DNA from: a virus
Virus record (IMG/VR): IMGVR_UViG_3300042554_000389
Location: 1-25,196 of that record
Direction: 5' to 3' (one strand)
Length of the DNA stretch: 25,196 bases
Of the stretch, positions 2,030 to 16,581 are shown piece by piece; positions within the stretch are counted from its first letter, which is position 1; the number at the start of each line of letters is the position of its first letter. Both the position numbers and the translations under genes were made by a program. The notes beneath the pieces were generated by a model. It ran no database searches. It saw only the letters and a list, made by a program, of their open reading frames with translations, and was not told where the DNA came from.

Positions 2030-2266
2030 TCAGACAATTTGCTTCTCTTTGAGGAATTTGATGGTCTCAACAGAACCTCCTAACTTCTGGTCGTCACATA
2101 CTACTTGAGGGAAGGTGGAACCTTCACCAAACTCAGAGTAAAACTCATCACGGGTAAAGTCTTCACCCAAAGTATACACTACAAAGTTACTATTTGTCAA
2201 TTCAAGGACTTGTTTAACTTTATAACAATAAGGGCAATCTTCTTTCGAATAGACAGTAAAGTTCAT
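2030..2266 (-). CDS. grx: Glutaredoxin
   Basis: This 78-residue protein has the full length of a phage glutaredoxin. The redox motif Cys-Pro-Tyr-Cys lies at residues 11-14 after a beta strand; Thr-Phe-Pro-Gln-Val (51-55) supplies the cis-proline; Gly-Gly (63-64) followed by Ser and Glu is the usual glutathione-contact turn. It reduces disulfides with glutathione. In T4-like phages its best-known partner is ribonucleotide reductase, which makes dNTPs for replication, though no such gene is in this window. ATG at 2266-2264 has an AT-rich upstream region with no clear ribosome-binding site. A sigma70-type promoter, interrupted by a terminator, lies upstream, and a late box follows the gene. The family call is certain; the in vivo substrate is inferred. 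Confidence 0.95.
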   Translation of the reverse strand: MNFTVYSKEDCPYCYKVKQVLELTNSNFVVYTLGEDFTRDEFYSEFGEGSTFPQVVCDDQKLGGSVETIKFLKEKQIV

Positions 2267-2299
2267 TGTTTCTTATAATTTTATAATAATTTATAATAG

Positions 2300-2326
2300 A
2301 AAAAAAGAGGGCATAAAACCCTCTTT
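2300..2326 (-). terminator. Intrinsic terminator upstream of glutaredoxin
   Basis: A perfect 8-bp minus-strand stem (AAAGAGGG at 2326-2319, CCCTCTTT at 2311-2304) with loop TTTTATG continues into a T7 run (2306-2300). It would end transcripts of the fibre block and also those from the sigma70 promoter at 2406-2434. Its 5' arm can alternatively pair with an 8-nt segment upstream (2366-2359). Confidence 0.9.
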
Positions 2327-2399
2327 AGTAACCACCAACTCACCTCTTCACACCACCGAAGAGGGTCTTCATTCCCAAAGTTACAAGGATGTTGAAGAC
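2300..2399 (-). ncRNA. Candidate ~100-nt small RNA or attenuated leader
   Basis: The expected transcript starts near 2399, about 7 nt after a consensus TATAAT, and ends at the terminator. It can fold into hairpin A (GTCTTCA 2399-2393 with TGAAGAC 2371-2365, 21-nt loop), hairpin B directly abutting it (CCTCTTC 2364-2358 with GAAGAGG 2349-2343, 8-nt loop), a 16-nt linker, and the terminator hairpin. Its only ATG frame is 10 codons (2372-2340) without a ribosome-binding site. Either it is a stand-alone small RNA or a leader controlling glutaredoxin by attenuation, because segment 2366-2359 can pair with either hairpin B or the terminator's 5' arm. The structure is seen in the sequence; expression is inferred. 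Confidence 0.6.
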
Positions 2400-2405
2400 T
2401 TGTAT

Positions 2406-2434
2406 ATTATACGGGAGTTTTGAAAAAAAGTCAA
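2406..2434 (-). promoter_or_regulatory. Consensus sigma70-type promoter
   Basis: The minus strand has TTGACT (2434-2429), a 17-nt spacer and TATAAT (2411-2406). It is the best host-type promoter in the window and is typical of early phage transcription. It reads toward the small-RNA segment and glutaredoxin. Confidence 0.85.
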
Positions 2435-2486: not shown

Positions 2487-2501
2487 GACTATAAGGTCTC
2501 A
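2487..2501. repeat. Shared 3'-end sequence, copy 1 (copy 2 at 3836-3850)
   Basis: The minus-strand 15-mer TGAGACCTTATAGTC is identical at the ends of the 2499 and 3838 genes, and similarity continues outward with a 3-4 nt insertion. In the 3838 gene it encodes the last residues and the TAG stop; in the 2499 gene the TGA within it is the stop, so the reading frames differ. It may mark a recombination junction. Confidence 0.7.
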
Positions 2502-3803
2502 GCGGATCAACCATTCCTCAACGGAATCGCTGATGTCGCGCATCTTGATCCAGCGGTTGCCAGTAGGTTGCCCTTTACGAAGGCGGAGCTTGCCCATCAG
2601 ACCGACGCAATCCCACTCTGGGCGTTGTTCGCGGGAAATGTATTCCGCATCTGGGTCATAGGCTGGATTCAGCTTGCGGCGCTGTTGAACGACCGTATTG
2701 CCATCTTCGTCTTCAACCTCGTAATCCTCAAGGATGTAGGTGCCGAACTCATCGCGCAGATACTTACCGCTCCACTTGTTCCAAGCTGCGTCACCGACAA
2801 CGGATGGATTACCAGAAATCACGCCGATGGGATCTTCACCATCTTCAGCAGGTCGGATCTTTTCGCCGTCAAGCACAACACTGATACCACGGCGGTCGTC
2901 TTTGTCAGGGTTGCCATCGCTCCATTCAAAGTATTCAGCGTAGTCAGCACCGCCGCCGGTCCAAGTACCATCGCATAAACCAGTGCCATCTCCGCGAAGA
3001 TTAAACTCTACATCTCCAAAATCACCGCTGAATAGTCTAATAAAGTTGTAAGCGGTATTGGCTGCTCTATTAGCATTAGCATATATCACAGTGCTTGCAT
3101 ACGAACCGTTTGTTGCGTATGCACTGATAACACCCGAACCGCTAGCTGCGTTTAAAACGGCAAGCTTATCGCCAGAATCAGCTTTACCCATTTCAATACT
3201 TCCGTCCGCCCGGATTCTCATTCGCTCTGTCGGGATGCTCGCTCCGGCGGCTGTTGTGGAAAATACGAGGCGCCCTGGCATACTGTTGACACCAACGGCA
3301 CTATCTGCATAGCACTCAATTTCAGCGGCGCGAACAAATTTGGCGCCGTCATTGCCTTGATAAGTGAGTCCGCCAATGCGGTCACCACTCTGAACTATAG
3401 TGTTCCCGGTTCCACGAGAGCGCCCAAGAATAAAGCGTGGGCCATCAGCATCATTTGAGTTGCGTGTAACAGAAAGACTGCAATCCCCGGAGGTGCTTCC
3501 CTCTACTTGAAGCAACGGATTAACAACACCATCGAAGAACCCAGTCCGCGCAGTCATCACCCCAACCAACAATCTTCCGGAACTATCGATGCGAGCTCGT
3601 TCACTACTACCAGTACCTAGTGTTAATACATTAGTCGCAGGAGAAAATATAGAGGCACCAGTACCGACTGTAAGAGTACCACCAGTCGTTCTTAAATCAG
3701 AAATCGTCGTGATACCTGCGATTACAACACCAGTATTACTGAGAGTTACGGTGCCTAATCCACTTTGGTTTGTGATTGAATTTACACGAATTACTGATGA
3801 CAT
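2499..3803 (-). CDS. Fibre protein with C-terminal Peptidase_G2-type autocleavage domain
   Basis: 434 residues. The N-terminal part (1-90) is made of short beta repeats of the Val-Gly-Thr-Gly and Ser-Ser-Gly-Arg-Leu-Leu-Val-Gly type seen in the other fibres. The middle (about 90-280) has fibre-like beta segments. From about residue 283 an Ala-Asp-Tyr-Ala-Glu-Tyr-Phe-Glu-Trp motif, Asp-Gly-Asn-Pro, an Asp-Arg-Arg-Gly segment and Gly-Val-Ile-Ser-Gly-Asn-Pro-Ser match the Peptidase_G2 intramolecular chaperone domain known from phi29-like appendage proteins. That domain assists trimer folding and then cuts itself off. The C-terminal coding part is clearly richer in GC (about 55-58% in lines sampled) than the other fibres (about 40%), suggesting acquisition. 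A late box lies 16 nt upstream of the ATG. The domain call is from motif recall; the fibre role is inferred from neighbours. Confidence 0.87.
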   Translation of the reverse strand: MSSVIRVNSITNQSGLGTVTLSNTGVVIAGITTISDLRTTGGTLTVGTGASIFSPATNVLTLGTGSSERARIDSSGRLLVGVMTARTGFFDGVVNPLLQVEGSTSGDCSLSVTRNSNDADGPRFILGRSRGTGNTIVQSGDRIGGLTYQGNDGAKFVRAAEIECYADSAVGVNSMPGRLVFSTTAAGASIPTERMRIRADGSIEMGKADSGDKLAVLNAASGSGVISAYATNGSYASTVIYANANRAANTAYNFIRLFSGDFGDVEFNLRGDGTGLCDGTWTGGGADYAEYFEWSDGNPDKDDRRGISVVLDGEKIRPAEDGEDPIGVISGNPSVVGDAAWNKWSGKYLRDEFGTYILEDYEVEDEDGNTVVQQRRKLNPAYDPDAEYISREQRPEWDCVGLMGKLRLRKGQPTGNRWIKMRDISDSVEEWLIR

Positions 3804-10189: not shown

Positions 10190-12409
10190 TTATCCTGCTA
10201 CAAAATCTAAACTATTTGCAGTTGAGTTGTACTGTATGTAGAAGTTTGTTGTTCCTGCAGTTCCACCGAATCTCATTTTGTTTGTGGAAGTTACTCTTGC
10301 ATCACCAGCAATGTCTGCTGTGAATGAAGGACTTAAAGTATTAATACCTACTCTATTATTTGTTGCATCAACATAAAGTGTTCCACTATCTACAGTAAAG
10401 TTACTTGTAACCGTAGCAACACCAGAAATTAAGGCATTTCCTTGAACCGTAAGAGTAGATGTTGGCGTTGTGGTTCCTATACCAACATTGCCAGAGTTAT
10501 TAATTCTAATAACATCATTATTATTTGCACCTAATGCAAGTTGAACTGATGTTACACCTCTAATTGAAGATACAAGATTTGAATGAGTAATTGTAAGATC
10601 GCCCTGTGCAAGTTGGACAAATCTTGCACTTCCACCTTGAACTTCAAATTTAAAGGAAGTATTTGTATTACCAACTCCAAGATTACCACCAATATAAACA
10701 CTTGAATTAATACCAGCAACTTGAAGAACTTGACCTGATGTTCCTGTTGATGTTGCTGCTCCAATAATAACAGGTCCAGAAGAAACTTGAAGTTGTCCTA
10801 CTGGATTTGTGGTTCCGATGCCGACATTACCACTTGCAGTTATTCTAAGCTTTTCACTTGTAAGAATAGAACTATCATTAGAAGCACCATTTCTACCTAC
10901 ATTAATTGAAAAATATTCAGTGCCCCAAACTCCAGTCGAGAATCCACCAACTAAATCAACAGCTCTTCTTGGACCTAAATCTGCAGGAAAATTAGCAAAA
11001 GTAGGATAGAAAGAATAAACACCAATCTCACCACTTGTTAGACCCATTCCAGCAGCAGCAAATTGAGCTGAATTTGCACTTGCAGCATTTGTTGATAATC
11101 CTGCAATAACTCCCGGAAATACATTTGCAGAAAAGAAAGGCGAAGAAGTTGCTCTTATTGCAGTAGATCCAGAAGTTGAAGAATACGCATCAATCCTTGA
11201 CGATGGATTCGTCACACCAACTCCAAGATTACCAGATACATAACCACCACCAGTAACTTGAAGTCTTTGTGATGCTGTTCCTGTTGATGTTGCTGCACCT
11301 ATGAGAAAATTTCCACTAGGAGTAAATCTTGCCCACTCATTATTTGCAAATATATTTGTAAAAACAATAGGTGCTGATGAGCCAGAGGTTGCTGTTATAC
11401 CTGATTGGATATAAGTAGCACCTCCTACACCAACTAATCTTAAAAGGGCATCACCAGAAACTCCATGATAGGAAGAATTGTTAATATGAAGTTGCGATGA
11501 TGCTGATAATGGATTTGTGGTTCCTATGCCAACGCTACCACTTACATAAACACCACCAGATACTTGAAGTAATTGTGATGCTGTTCCTGTTGAAGTTGTA
11601 GTTCCAACTAAAAGTTCGCCAGATGCATTAAGCATCATTTGATCACCATTACCTGATCTAAATCTTATATTATTGCCAGTTGGACGATTTATGTAAAGAG
11701 TTTGGTCCGATGCCGATGAAAGAATATTATACTGACTGCTAACCGTACTATTGTTTAGTGTAATTCCATTATATCCAGAAAAAACTTCACCAATTCTTAC
11801 AAATCCATTTCCACCCTGAACATCAAGTTTTGCTGTTGGATTTGTTGAACCAATACCAACACTACCACTGACATAAGCACCACCAGATACTTGAAGTAAT
11901 TGTGATGCTGTTCCTGTTGAAGTTGTAGTTCCTACAAGAATGTTACCTATATTATCAATTCTTGCTTTTTCCGAAACTACATCTGAATTTCTTGTTGAAA
12001 ATGCTAATACAGAATTAACCCAGTTAGAACCTAAAGGTATTGCATCAACTGTAACTACTCTTTTTCCAGTTCCTGCAGTATCGTAAGCAAAAAATTCATA
12101 TCCAACAAATTTCGTAACATTATTTGCAGTACTTGTATTAGTAGCACGAATTGGATAATCTCCAGAACTATTATTTGTAGCAGATTCTAATTTTGATGCT
12201 GGATTTGTAACACCAACTCCAAGATTACCGGAAACATAAGCGCCACCACCATAAACTTGTAATATCTGCCCTGCTGTTCCGCTATCAACAAATGTAGAAC
12301 CTATGCCAACCTTATCAACACTTACATATGCCTTATCCTGGAACGCAAGGTTCCCCAACATACTATTGAGTGGGACCTGATTAGGATTTGTGCCAAATAA
12401 GTTTGCCAT
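10190..12409 (-). CDS. Long repeat fibre protein without a chaperone tail (739 residues)
   Basis: The protein is almost entirely repeats. About eight modules share the pattern Val-Gly-(Thr/Ala)-x-Thr-Ser-Thr-Gly-Thr-Ala-Ser-Gln, Leu-Gln-Val, Tyr-Val-Ser-Gly, Gly-(Ile/Val)-Gly-x-Thr-Asn-Pro, separated by variable beta-rich spacers. Extended fibres in T4-like cyanophages are built this way. There is no signal peptide, enzyme motif, S74 or G2 domain, and the end is an ordinary beta segment, so folding would need an external chaperone or a partner fibre. ATG 12409 lies 7 nt after the previous stop, with a GGAT-type site. DNA identity between modules makes the gene prone to recombination and length change. 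Confidence 0.88.
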   Translation of the reverse strand: MANLFGTNPNQVPLNSMLGNLAFQDKAYVSVDKVGIGSTFVDSGTAGQILQVYGGGAYVSGNLGVGVTNPASKLESATNNSSGDYPIRATNTSTANNVTKFVGYEFFAYDTAGTGKRVVTVDAIPLGSNWVNSVLAFSTRNSDVVSEKARIDNIGNILVGTTTSTGTASQLLQVSGGAYVSGSVGIGSTNPTAKLDVQGGNGFVRIGEVFSGYNGITLNNSTVSSQYNILSSASDQTLYINRPTGNNIRFRSGNGDQMMLNASGELLVGTTTSTGTASQLLQVSGGVYVSGSVGIGTTNPLSASSQLHINNSSYHGVSGDALLRLVGVGGATYIQSGITATSGSSAPIVFTNIFANNEWARFTPSGNFLIGAATSTGTASQRLQVTGGGYVSGNLGVGVTNPSSRIDAYSSTSGSTAIRATSSPFFSANVFPGVIAGLSTNAASANSAQFAAAGMGLTSGEIGVYSFYPTFANFPADLGPRRAVDLVGGFSTGVWGTEYFSINVGRNGASNDSSILTSEKLRITASGNVGIGTTNPVGQLQVSSGPVIIGAATSTGTSGQVLQVAGINSSVYIGGNLGVGNTNTSFKFEVQGGSARFVQLAQGDLTITHSNLVSSIRGVTSVQLALGANNNDVIRINNSGNVGIGTTTPTSTLTVQGNALISGVATVTSNFTVDSGTLYVDATNNRVGINTLSPSFTADIAGDARVTSTNKMRFGGTAGTTNFYIQYNSTANSLDFVAG

Positions 12410-12766: not shown

Positions 12767-14083
12767 TCAACTCGTTAAGTTGAGTAATTGTTGATTGGTG
12801 ATTTGGATTGGGTAATAAGTTATTCTTCTTATGTGTCCATTTAATCTATCAACAGTAGAACCATTTCCTCCTATTTCCATAAAACTCAAACTTGATGGAA
12901 GGTTTTTAGTAGATAAACCTTTTGAAACTACTTTACCATCAAAATAATAATTAAATTCACCAAACTTATAAGTGCCTGCAAATTTCTTATAAACTCCAGA
13001 TGTATTGGTTGGTCCTGTTGCTTCTATTAAATTTGCTGCTCCAACTCCTGCTCCAGGAGCATCAGCAAAATTCCTAACTAACCAAAGAACATAAGGAGTA
13101 TTTGTATTATAATAAAAGAATTGAATGGTATTACCAGAACCAGCACCCCTTGTAAAACCAATTGCAGGAAATTTATTAACTGTTTGATATGGTATTTCAC
13201 TATCCACACATAAAGTTCCTTCTGTGGAATTAAAGAAGTTTGAGAAGTTAGTTCCAGATATATTTGCAGTATCAGCACTTCTTGTGACTGTGGAACCTGA
13301 TGTTGGTATATAAGATGTTGGAAATGAACCTGCTTCTAATTGTGCTCCCCAGATATAGATGCCTGATGTTCCGTCTCCCGTATAAACAGCAGAACCACTA
13401 TTATTAACTGTTGAAATTGTTGGATAATTATTTGTATTTACACTTCCCTTAGTAGCAGTTAAAATACATCTATACCAACCATTTGGATATGCTATCATCG
13501 ATGCCGAAATGTTACTATAATCGGCATTACTTGAATTTGGACTTCCAGCAGTTCCAGTGGATAAATTATAAACTACTTGTGCTGTAGCATTTACACTATT
13601 AGACAACTGTAAAAAAACTCGTGTTCTTTCTGCTGCCTTACAAAAAACACTAAAAGTTACTGTTTCGTTACTTCCAGTTCTTGTTTTTAAAACAAAATGT
13701 TGTGCATTTGCAGTGTCTTCTACCAGTTTCTCTGCTGTTATAAGTCCATCTGGTGATGCAATCTGATTTGTTGATATAGAGGAACTTACTTTAATCCAAG
13801 AAGCATCACTAAAATCCTCACTATAAGTCAATAAGTTCTGCCTACTCTCCTCAATCAACAATCCTAAACTTTGCCCTGAAATTGGATCGTGGTCGAATCT
13901 TGGTTCATTTGCAATAGCAGTTTTCATAAGACCATCAGGACCAAAATAAGTTCCAGTGCTTCCGCGAGTGAATGTAATGCGTGGGTCTAACTTTTTCGCA
14001 AGAGCAAATCTCAAATCCAAAGATGGGCGAACATTTGGAAAGTCTGTGTTTTGTGATTGTTTTTGAAGAGAAAGTATAGACAT
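12767..14083 (-). CDS. Adhesin paralogue 1: conserved N-domain, CBM-like, LamG-like (438 residues)
   Basis: Residues 19-85 hold the conserved opening (Arg-Pro-Ser-Leu-Asp-Leu, Asp-Pro-Arg-Ile-Thr-Phe-Thr-Arg-Gly-Ser, Pro-Arg-Phe-Asp-His-Asp-Pro, Gly-Leu-Leu-Ile-Glu-Glu-Ser-Arg), which is common in phage structural adhesins. A carbohydrate-binding-like beta domain follows (about 86-260, with Asn-Gly-Trp-Tyr-Arg and Tyr-Thr-Gly-Asp-Gly-Thr-Ser-Gly). The last third (about 275-438) looks like a LamG-type jelly roll with a Phe-Tyr-Phe-Asp-Gly-Lys strand and a Thr-Tyr-Tyr-Pro end. ATG 14083 starts 1 nt after the upstream stop. With its two neighbours it forms a tandem set. A glycan-binding, host-recognition role is inferred. 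Confidence 0.87.
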   Translation of the reverse strand: MSILSLQKQSQNTDFPNVRPSLDLRFALAKKLDPRITFTRGSTGTYFGPDGLMKTAIANEPRFDHDPISGQSLGLLIEESRQNLLTYSEDFSDASWIKVSSSISTNQIASPDGLITAEKLVEDTANAQHFVLKTRTGSNETVTFSVFCKAAERTRVFLQLSNSVNATAQVVYNLSTGTAGSPNSSNADYSNISASMIAYPNGWYRCILTATKGSVNTNNYPTISTVNNSGSAVYTGDGTSGIYIWGAQLEAGSFPTSYIPTSGSTVTRSADTANISGTNFSNFFNSTEGTLCVDSEIPYQTVNKFPAIGFTRGAGSGNTIQFFYYNTNTPYVLWLVRNFADAPGAGVGAANLIEATGPTNTSGVYKKFAGTYKFGEFNYYFDGKVVSKGLSTKNLPSSLSFMEIGGNGSTVDRLNGHIRRITYYPIQITNQQLLNLTS

Positions 14084-14084
14084 C

Positions 14085-15332
14085 TTACTGTGTGAGTAGG
14101 ACTAATTGATTATCTTTAAGTCTTCTTGGATAATATGTGAGACGACTTATGGTTCCGTTGAGATAATTGTTTGCTGGTGTTCCAATAACATTATTCCATC
14201 CTATAAGTAATCTATTTACAGTTACACCAGAATTAAATGATGTTACATTTCCAGAAAATTTAGCATTAGAACAAGACAATATTGTGTTAGTTGTTGAAGG
14301 TAAAATAATAGAACAATTTTTTAACTTTGTTACATCTATACCAGTTACATCACCGATACTTGTTCCAGAACTTGAAGTATTTGGTCCTCTTACTGCTAAT
14401 CTGGAAGATGATGATGTGCTTGTATGATATAATGAATAACCATTTGCATAAGAACCATTATCCAAAGTCCAAGAACCAGTAGCTTCTGCTGTTAATGCTC
14501 TCGTGATACTTATATTTGAATAAATCGTCCCCTCACTAGAATTATACCAACTTGAGAAGTTTGTTCCAGTCATAGAAGCAAGGTCAGCAGAACGAGTAAC
14601 TGTGGATGCTGTTGTTGGTATGTATGAGGTTGGAAATGCTCCTGTTTCTAATTGAGCACCCCATATTGCAATTTGTGCTGTATTATTTTGATCGGCAATA
14701 AAAAACATACTAACACCAGTTTGAGCAGTCACATTAGTAAATGTTGTACTAAATCTTTTCCATTCTGTTGTTAAGTTGTTATTGTAACTTACTGTCGATC
14801 TGGTAAGAGCAGTTCCATTATGATATGATGCAGAAATTATAGTTCCTGTAGTTGGAACACTTCCTGTACCTGCGATTAGTTTTACCCAAACAGAACAAGT
14901 ATAAGTTGTGTTTGCACTTAAATTTACAGATTGATTTACAAATTCATTAGCACTACTTCCATTACCAGAAAAATAAACTGCAGTATTTGTTCCATCAGGT
15001 GCTGCTGTTACCCCAATTCTTGTAGTATTTGCGCCTTTGCCCCAAGGAGAAACCAAATTGTCAGGAGAATTTGATTGTAATAATAAGTTTTGCCTACTCT
15101 CCTCAATCAATAAACCCTTACACTCACCAGTCACAGGGTCATAATCAAATCTTGGTTGATTTGCAGCAACAGATTCAATCAAACGATTACGATTGACACG
15201 AGTTGCAGTGCTTCCTCTGGTGAATGTAATATGATTGTCTAATACTTCTTGTGTGAAATCCAAGTCTAAACTTGGACGGCAGATTGGATAATCTAAATCA
15301 ACATCGGATTTGTAGGTAAGTATTTTAGTCAT
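14085..15332 (-). CDS. Adhesin paralogue 2: conserved N-domain, CBM-like, LamG-like (415 residues)
   Basis: The architecture matches paralogue 1: the Arg-Pro-Ser-Leu-Asp-Leu opening and Ile-Thr-Phe-Thr-Arg-Gly-Ser-Thr motif (about 18-45), the Gly-Leu-Leu-Ile-Glu-Glu-Ser-Arg link (about 75), a carbohydrate-binding-like domain ending in Trp-Gly-Ala-Gln-Leu-Glu-Thr-Gly, and a LamG-like end with Leu-Thr-Tyr-Tyr-Pro-Arg-Arg. The binding-domain body differs strongly from paralogue 1, while the junctions are conserved. A 59-nt stretch (14563-14621) is identical to paralogue 3, and so is the DNA for the Ser-Arg-Leu-Thr-Tyr-Tyr-Pro segment near the end. It starts 4 nt after the preceding stop without a clear ribosome-binding site. 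Function is inferred from domain type and context. Confidence 0.86.
   Translation of the reverse strand: MTKILTYKSDVDLDYPICRPSLDLDFTQEVLDNHITFTRGSTATRVNRNRLIESVAANQPRFDYDPVTGECKGLLIEESRQNLLLQSNSPDNLVSPWGKGANTTRIGVTAAPDGTNTAVYFSGNGSSANEFVNQSVNLSANTTYTCSVWVKLIAGTGSVPTTGTIISASYHNGTALTRSTVSYNNNLTTEWKRFSTTFTNVTAQTGVSMFFIADQNNTAQIAIWGAQLETGAFPTSYIPTTASTVTRSADLASMTGTNFSSWYNSSEGTIYSNISITRALTAEATGSWTLDNGSYANGYSLYHTSTSSSSRLAVRGPNTSSSGTSIGDVTGIDVTKLKNCSIILPSTTNTILSCSNAKFSGNVTSFNSGVTVNRLLIGWNNVIGTPANNYLNGTISRLTYYPRRLKDNQLVLLTQ
14563..14621. repeat. 59-nt direct repeat, copy 1 (copy 2 at 15791-15849)
   Basis: The 59 bases 14563-14621 and 15791-15849 appear identical, 1228 bp apart in matching positions of paralogues 2 and 3. 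They encode the junction between the carbohydrate-binding-like and LamG-like domains (Leu-Ala-Ser-Met-Thr-Gly-Thr). It could support recombination that swaps or deletes whole adhesin genes. Confidence 0.85.
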
Positions 15333-15336
15333 AATA

Positions 15337-16581
15337 CTAACTCGTTATATATTGTAATTGTGATGGTGAAAGTGTTTTTGGATAATATGTGAGACGACTT
15401 ATGGTTCCATTCCAAGGATTTGCAAATCCATTAGAAGAACCTATATTCATCCTATCTACTGTTGGGAGCAATACAGAATTATCAGTAGCAGTTAAAGTCC
15501 CATTAACACAAAATTTTGAATTATTTGTTGAAAATGTATGTATAGATTTAAATAAATTTGTTGTAGATAGATTTACAAAAGCATACACAGTTTGAAGAAT
15601 TCCCCCTTTAATTATCCCATAATTTGTAAATTCAGTGCTTGCATCAACACCATATACTAGATAACGATTATTTGCTGTGCCGTCATTTATTGCATAAAGA
15701 TTTGGATATCCAGAAAAATTACCACCATATCCTCTTCTTGCTGCTACAAATATTGTCCCCTCACTTTGATTGAACCAACTTGAGAAGTTAGTTCCAGTCA
15801 TAGAAGCAAGGTCAGCAGAACGAGTAACTGTGGATGCTGTTGTTGGTATATAAGAAGTTGGAAATGCTCCTGCTTCTACTTGCATTCCATAGATGTAAAA
15901 TCCAGAACTTCCATCACCTTGATATAAAGAATTTGAACCAGTCCTATCCATTAAAAATATTTGCGCCCCTTCACTTGTTGTCGTTGCAGTCCAAACGACA
16001 TAAATTCTATACCAACCATTTGGATAAGGTATTACTCCACAAGTTCCAGTCGATGATAAAATTGAACCATTTATTAAATTTATAATGATGGTATTATTTA
16101 CTCCAACTTTTAATCTTCCATACAACTTACTTCCAGAATATTTTACAAACACAGAACCACAATAAGTTGTTCCTATGACTGCAGTAATATTTTGGGTGTA
16201 AAGTTTAAAGGATAATGTAGTTTTTTCAAATATTAAACTTGCGTTTGTAGTTCCATCAGGTGAAACAGCAGCACTTGCAGTTATTCCATAGTTTGTATCA
16301 CCACTACCAAAAGAATTGCTACTTGTAAGTAAATTTGCTCTACTTTCCTCAATCAAAAGTCCTCTACACTCACCACTAATCGGATCATAATCAAATCTTG
16401 GTTGATTTGCTGGTGCCGTTTCAATCAATCCATTCTTATTCACAAAAGTTCCAATTGAACCCCGAGTGAATGTAATGCGTGGATCTAAACTTTGTGAGTT
16501 TGCAAAGTCTAGATTAAGTGTTGGCGCTGTGACTGGTACATCTAAATCAGCACTCTGTAGTCCGTCTCTTATGATGCTCAT
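15337..16581 (-). CDS. Adhesin paralogue 3: conserved N-domain, CBM-like, LamG-like (414 residues)
   Basis: ATG 16581 overlaps the TGA of the 1761-residue fibre gene (ATGA), so it is probably translationally coupled to that fibre. It has the set's conserved opening (Ala-Pro-Thr-Leu-Asn-Leu, Asp-Pro-Arg-Ile-Thr-Phe-Thr-Arg-Gly-Ser, Pro-Arg-Phe-Asp-Tyr-Asp-Pro), then a carbohydrate-binding-like domain with Asn-Gly-Trp-Tyr-Arg and Tyr-Gln-Gly-Asp-Gly-Ser-Ser-Gly, and a LamG-like end with Ser-Arg-Leu-Thr-Tyr-Tyr-Pro. The coupling suggests it may form the tip or a partner of the long fibre, which lacks a chaperone of its own; this is inference. No enzyme motifs are visible. Confidence 0.86.
   Translation of the reverse strand: MSIIRDGLQSADLDVPVTAPTLNLDFANSQSLDPRITFTRGSIGTFVNKNGLIETAPANQPRFDYDPISGECRGLLIEESRANLLTSSNSFGSGDTNYGITASAAVSPDGTTNASLIFEKTTLSFKLYTQNITAVIGTTYCGSVFVKYSGSKLYGRLKVGVNNTIIINLINGSILSSTGTCGVIPYPNGWYRIYVVWTATTTSEGAQIFLMDRTGSNSLYQGDGSSGFYIYGMQVEAGAFPTSYIPTTASTVTRSADLASMTGTNFSSWFNQSEGTIFVAARRGYGGNFSGYPNLYAINDGTANNRYLVYGVDASTEFTNYGIIKGGILQTVYAFVNLSTTNLFKSIHTFSTNNSKFCVNGTLTATDNSVLLPTVDRMNIGSSNGFANPWNGTISRLTYYPKTLSPSQLQYITS

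Follow-up and report, generated by a model that had tools for sequence, protein, structure and literature searches.

A family of predicted small RNAs with its own promoter and terminator in T4-like cyanophages

Introduction

The window analysed here is the whole 25,196-nt stretch of viral DNA from IMG/VR record IMGVR_UViG_3300042554_000389 (positions 1 to 25,196). Between a tail-fibre gene and a glutaredoxin/thioredoxin-domain gene (grx) it contains a short minus-strand segment that carries a sigma70-type promoter at one end and an intrinsic terminator at the other. The first-pass annotation had offered two readings of this segment, a phage small RNA or an attenuator, and the question raised by the locus is whether it is a gene in its own right or a leader of the gene that follows. 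Here it is proposed that the cassette is quite probably a T4-like cyanophage gene for a free-standing small RNA, most likely trans-acting. Its layout, conservation, structure and several genomic contexts were established by computation.

Organization and predicted structure of the cassette

The minus strand has TTGACT, a 17-nt spacer and TATAAT, followed by a segment of about 100 nt that ends in a terminator with seven T, as the first-pass annotation had described (Table 1). The terminator stem, given there as 8 bp, reaches 9 bp when a T-G pair is counted (2326-2318 with 2312-2304), and the seven-T run occupies 2306-2300. Both of the abutting hairpins proposed for the 5' part were recovered by folding, with the outer stem of hairpin 1 formed by 2399-2393 with 2371-2365 and the stem of hairpin 2 by 2364-2358 with 2349-2343, the latter being 8 bp long if the G-U closing pair is included. 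Hairpin 1 also has an inner 4-bp stem (2389-2386 with 2376-2373), absent from the first-pass annotation, which gives the fold (((((((...((((.........)))).))))))), with hairpin 2 directly after.

Table 1. Coordinates of the cassette elements and of the neighbouring features in the window
Feature	Coordinates	Strand	Basis or remark
-35 hexamer TTGACT	2429..2434	-	Sequence match; TTGACA in 66/75 homologues
-10 hexamer TATAAT	2406..2411	-	6 nt from its end to hairpin 1, identical in 75/75 promoter-bearing homologues
Predicted small RNA, about 100 nt	2300..2399	-	Fold; covariance-model match at 2301-2399
Hairpin 1, outer 7-bp and inner 4-bp stem, conserved apical UUGUAACUUUG	2365..2399	-	Fold, covariation
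Hairpin 2, 7-8 bp stem, loop GUGGUG (2356-2351)	2343..2364	-	Fold, covariation, compensated stem replacement in divergent subfamily
Single-stranded 16-nt linker with UUGGUGGU (2338-2331), conserved candidate contact site	2327..2342	-	Conservation
Intrinsic terminator, 9-bp stem and seven T	2300..2326	-	Sequence, fold
TATAAAT, late-promoter-like box between terminator and grx	2289..2295	-	Sequence; cf. PMC2984593, PMC3037559
Glutaredoxin/thioredoxin-domain gene (grx), phrog_22	2030..2266	-	Downstream neighbour, outside the RNA
Tail-fibre gene	2499..3803	-	Upstream neighbour

The minimum folding energy of the predicted RNA is -35.8 kcal/mol, against -24.3 kcal/mol for shuffled sequences (z -3.52; 0 of 200 shuffles as good), and the RNA minus its terminator has a z of -2.49. 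A covariance model of the RNA (R1) scores 104.6 bits at the site, whereas the next best match in the window reaches 14 bits. When distinct copies were folded individually, with no alignment, all three hairpins formed in 70 of 80; several of those that fail are of the L021/L248 type, whose linker can base-pair with the 3' strand of hairpin 1. Pairing of the hairpin-1 loop (AACU/AUCU) with the linker (AGUU/AGAU) as a pseudoknot seemed possible for some copies; it was discarded, as the alignment shows AUCU loops together with GAGUU linkers. Promoter-like matches are at chance level by themselves (33 found vs 34.5 expected in 12 kb), so the case for the cassette rests on conservation.

In the rest of the window, a long array of minus-strand tail-fibre-like genes extends over 2499-25036, including genes that share the repeated motif FTRGST...LLIEESR.NLL (e.g. 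12767-14083, 14085-15332 and 15337-16581). At the window edge (14-32), the minus strand has a strong terminator-like hairpin, GGAGGGGTTGATTCCCTCC and then seven T, and a plus-strand TAGACA/TATAAT match at 2250-2279 spans the start of grx.

Distribution and sequence conservation

The same promoter-RNA-terminator layout recurs in over 100 related viral stretches. The nearest named phage, Synechococcus phage S-SRM01 (MW015081), which comes from a reservoir in Singapore and infects Synechococcus KCZYC6, has the cassette too, with the RNA at 10977-11078 and the glutaredoxin gene downstream. A simple search expression for the full cassette matched 45 of 83 grx upstream regions (80 IMG/VR loci, two reference phages and the window), the core pattern of hairpin 1 occurs at least 118 times, and model R1 gave 94 matches among the 99 sources searched. 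A single strong covariance-model match per genome was obtained in S-SRM01 and in three contigs of 211-236 kb, and two smaller contigs carry two strong matches. Weak additional matches in the same genomes (10-23 bits) looked like plain terminators or unrelated sequence in those cases inspected. With stricter filters, the covariance-model search gave no convincing copy in S-CRM01, DSL-LC02, DSL-LC03, S-PM2 (best score 19.5 bits), P-SSM2, S-SSM7, Syn30, S-SKS1, ACG-2014f, Sf-CH5, Sf-FS3 or AG-345-L05. Judging from S-SRM01 and from the absence in marine references, the carriers are apparently mainly freshwater (or brackish) T4-like cyanophages.

There is a sharp onset of conservation at the -35 box. 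Upstream of it (-36), pairwise identity averages about 0.28; within the -35 hexamer the first five positions reach 0.95-0.97, most of the spacer is low, and the RNA body stands at 0.84. The unit under conservation is the promoter together with the RNA and the terminator. The spacer is 17 nt long in 74 of 75 promoter-bearing copies and the -10 hexamer is TATAAT in 68, while the distance from its end to the first G of hairpin 1 is exactly 6 nt in all 75 distinct copies of this kind. No small open reading frame is conserved, the ATG frames being 2-53 aa long and varying in frame between copies, with none at all in 8 copies.

In the window, a same-strand tail-fibre gene precedes the RNA, and in loci of the L207 type the RNA follows a gene and its own promoter is absent, both of which would suit a role as stabiliser and terminator in the 3' UTR of a tail-fibre operon upstream, with no independent RNA. 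However, a near-consensus promoter stands at the fixed distance in 75 of the 77 distinct copies with a full upstream region, which would be pointless for a 3' UTR, and the genes upstream of the RNA vary among loci; a 3'-UTR element is accordingly a highly improbable explanation. In L207 itself, the copy without a recognisable promoter (1501-1599) begins about 25 nt past the stop codon of the upstream gene and is followed by another promoter and then by a collagen-like tail-fibre gene. L207-like promoterless copies are those of L104, L105, L111, L113, L125, L146, L160, L178, L179, L180 and L200.

Covariation and a divergent subfamily

In the 94 covariance-model matches (73 distinct), 95.4% of the cells can pair, and 16 of the 25 proposed pairs have changes on both sides. 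Covariation was assessed with a tree-based null in the spirit of R-scape, in which substitutions obtained by Fitch reconstruction on a FastTree phylogeny were re-placed on the same branches. A first run with 71 sequences, without the divergent subfamily, gave significant pairs in hairpin 2 only, and there only with testing restricted to the proposed pairs. Once the divergent subfamily was included, the top four of the 4465 column pairs all belonged to the proposed structure, two to each hairpin, which supports hairpin 1 as well as hairpin 2. In alignments that were fitted to the covariance model, and are therefore biased toward the proposed pairs, the hairpin-2 pair 48:68 has an E of 0.01 across all column pairs; within the set of 25 proposed pairs, E is 0.0015 for 52:63, 0.0019 for 18:30 and 0.0075 for 8:36. 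Loci that keep promoter and terminator with no compensatory changes in the two hairpins had been named in the first-pass annotation as evidence against its proposal; the test was made, compensatory changes were found, and the small-RNA half of the proposal was not refuted.

The divergent subfamily comprises six loci (L238, L242, L243, L244, L249 and L252) that score 53-57 bits. Their hairpin-2 stem changes from CCUCUC/GAGAGG to CUGUCC/GGACAG or CCGUCU/AGACGG, and they retain hairpin 1 with its apex and the GGUGG (UUGGUGGU) loop of hairpin 2. The gene downstream of these RNAs is a phage peptidase gene, phrog_459, not grx.

Genomic contexts

The cassette has at least six downstream contexts. Glutaredoxin follows the RNA in 97 of the 118 matches listed, and 11 more, from one near-identical population, are without a promoter, the gene downstream in L207 being the collagen-like tail-fibre gene. 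Four of the 118 precede a phrog_662 gene and a Phd-like antitoxin, as read in L221, and single matches precede a glycosyltransferase-like gene, a class read from the translation and not from a database match (L130), and a large gene (L166). Two matches are broken at GTGGTG and two more run off the contig end. In L221 (1667-2037), the cassette is directly 5' of a second sigma70-like promoter, the phrog_662 gene and the antitoxin gene, with no obvious toxin adjoining. Two apparent natural deletions were also observed: upstream of grx at 816 in L049, promoter and terminator are kept and the RNA body is missing, and in L330 (288-367), hairpin 2 is missing while hairpin 1, GGUGGUAUAAU and the terminator are kept.

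The predominance of grx among the matches listed points to a possible link between the RNA and this gene, and it is compatible with a grx attenuator or riboswitch-like leader, in which the hairpins, set against an antiterminator, would control read-through into grx. The 8-bp alternative pairing that the first-pass annotation had noticed for such a switch (2366-2359 with 2325-2318) does exist in the window sequence. However, the alternative helix is of similar length with a copy's own and with swapped terminators, it is only 5-7 bp in five listed copies of other types, and the terminator stem comes in two quite different sequence classes. Furthermore, TATAAAT occurs within 90 nt downstream of the terminator in 74 of 80 copies, separating it from the gene, so the downstream gene appears to own a late signal. 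Nor is the downstream gene consistent, since tail-fibre, glycosyltransferase, antitoxin and peptidase genes also follow the cassette. As the alternative pairing is no better with own than with swapped terminators and the cassette also occurs without grx, the attenuator half of the first-pass proposal is not supported and is a very unlikely explanation. The small-RNA half is backed by the fixed promoter-to-hairpin spacing, the terminator of its own, the lack of a conserved reading frame, the covariation and the several unrelated downstream genes.

The upstream side raises a further alternative, a conserved boundary or linker for recombination that swaps tail-fibre modules, in which the hairpins would be incidental. 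The upstream neighbour is a tail-fibre array, the upstream DNA is unrelated in 22 of 25 pairs of loci with nearly identical RNAs, and in two contigs, L089 (1665, reverse strand) and L182, the RNA gene breaks off at GTGGTG, where Gly-rich coding-like sequence takes over, junctions whose sequence suggests recombination at the GGTGG motif. The compensatory base changes in both hairpins and the invariant spacing of -35, -10 and start nevertheless require selection on the transcript, so the element is not solely a boundary, and the boundary reading by itself is very unlikely. The RNA element may double as a boundary.

Proposed function and search for targets

T4-like cyanophages are thought to use the unmodified RNA polymerase of the host at sigma70-type promoters early in infection and promoters of the NATAAATA/TATAAAT type late (PMC2984593, PMC3037559). 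In the mechanism proposed for the small RNA, host RNA polymerase would transcribe it from its sigma70-type (early-type) promoter, starting at or adjacent to the first G of hairpin 1 and ending at its own terminator, which would give a transcript of about 95-103 nt. With a stem at its 5' end and the terminator stem at its 3' end, the RNA would have almost no free ends and be stable, and the terminator would also insulate it from the downstream gene with its own late-type box. The elements predicted to be exposed are the hairpin-1 apex UUGURWCUUUG and the G/U-rich UGGUGG, in the hairpin-2 loop and/or the linker UUGGUGGU, and it is through these that the RNA would most likely act in trans, either base-pairing with host mRNAs or binding a protein. 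From the cassette we infer transcription, timing, stability and action in trans: the RNA is probably expressed early and probably trans-acting. More tentatively, it could be a mobile cassette shuffled among loci of freshwater T4-like cyanophages, its product an early host-takeover RNA whose loop and linker UGGUGG pair with CCACC(A) in host mRNAs or sequester an RNA-binding protein.

The search for targets among phage mRNAs gave no conserved strong duplex in 170 ortholog groups from four phage genomes. Similarly, the complement ACCACC is not enriched near gene starts, with 20 occurrences vs about 36 expected over four genomes, a shortfall that may be explained by base composition. A small conserved gene with the N-terminus MTTTFA[DE]Y... 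(L367 at 16690, which is S-SRM01; L383 at 18575, G001; and L393 at 5599, G002) has ACCACC in its start-codon region, shortly after TATAAT and partly complementary to UUGGUGGU; on this sequence match it is a possible target of the RNA.

Comparison with known phage RNAs

No family of Rfam 15 matched the window above its gathering score (best hit, on the opposite strand, 17.7 bits; threshold 50), and the search at a relaxed E-value gave nothing meaningful. Host homologues were sought with a narrow exact-core pattern, which may miss a diverged relative; across 84,980 prokaryote genomes it had four matches, each to an unrelated bacterium and none to a cyanobacterium. The S-SRM01 record has no annotated feature at the RNA site, and the words sRNA, promoter and terminator are absent from the main text of its genome paper. 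The RNA is proposed to be a new family of a known kind, the phage-encoded small RNAs. These include the stable RNAs C and D of phage T4, small RNAs of unknown function encoded in the T4 tRNA gene cluster; like the new RNA, they are small RNAs of a T4-type phage, a comparison made by description only.

In cyanophages, an abiF sRNA has been reported from S-CREM1 (PMC9964418); it is likewise a small RNA in a cyanophage, but the window matches neither abiF nor any Rfam family. The cyanophage cis-regulatory RNAs in Rfam, namely wcaG, manA, PhotoRC-II and glnA (PMC2864571, PMC9964418), are also structured RNAs common to cyanophages. According to their descriptions, these are cis elements tied to particular gene classes, whereas the new RNA has its own terminator, precedes unrelated genes and has no Rfam match. 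CfrI, an antisense RNA of about 225 nt with unknown function, has been described in cyanophage S-PM2 (PMC2984593). Both CfrI and the RNA of the window are non-coding RNAs of T4-like cyanophages; however, the antisense partners of CfrI are psbA and a homing-endonuclease gene, whereas the window RNA is intergenic, between the tail-fibre gene and grx, about 100 nt long and provided with its own promoter and terminator. To our knowledge, lytic phages have few known small RNAs, most of which, CfrI included, are of unknown function. The predicted RNA adds to them a well-bounded, structurally conserved family in phages of ecologically important picocyanobacteria and, because it is present in the cultured phage S-SRM01, its expression and function are open to direct testing.
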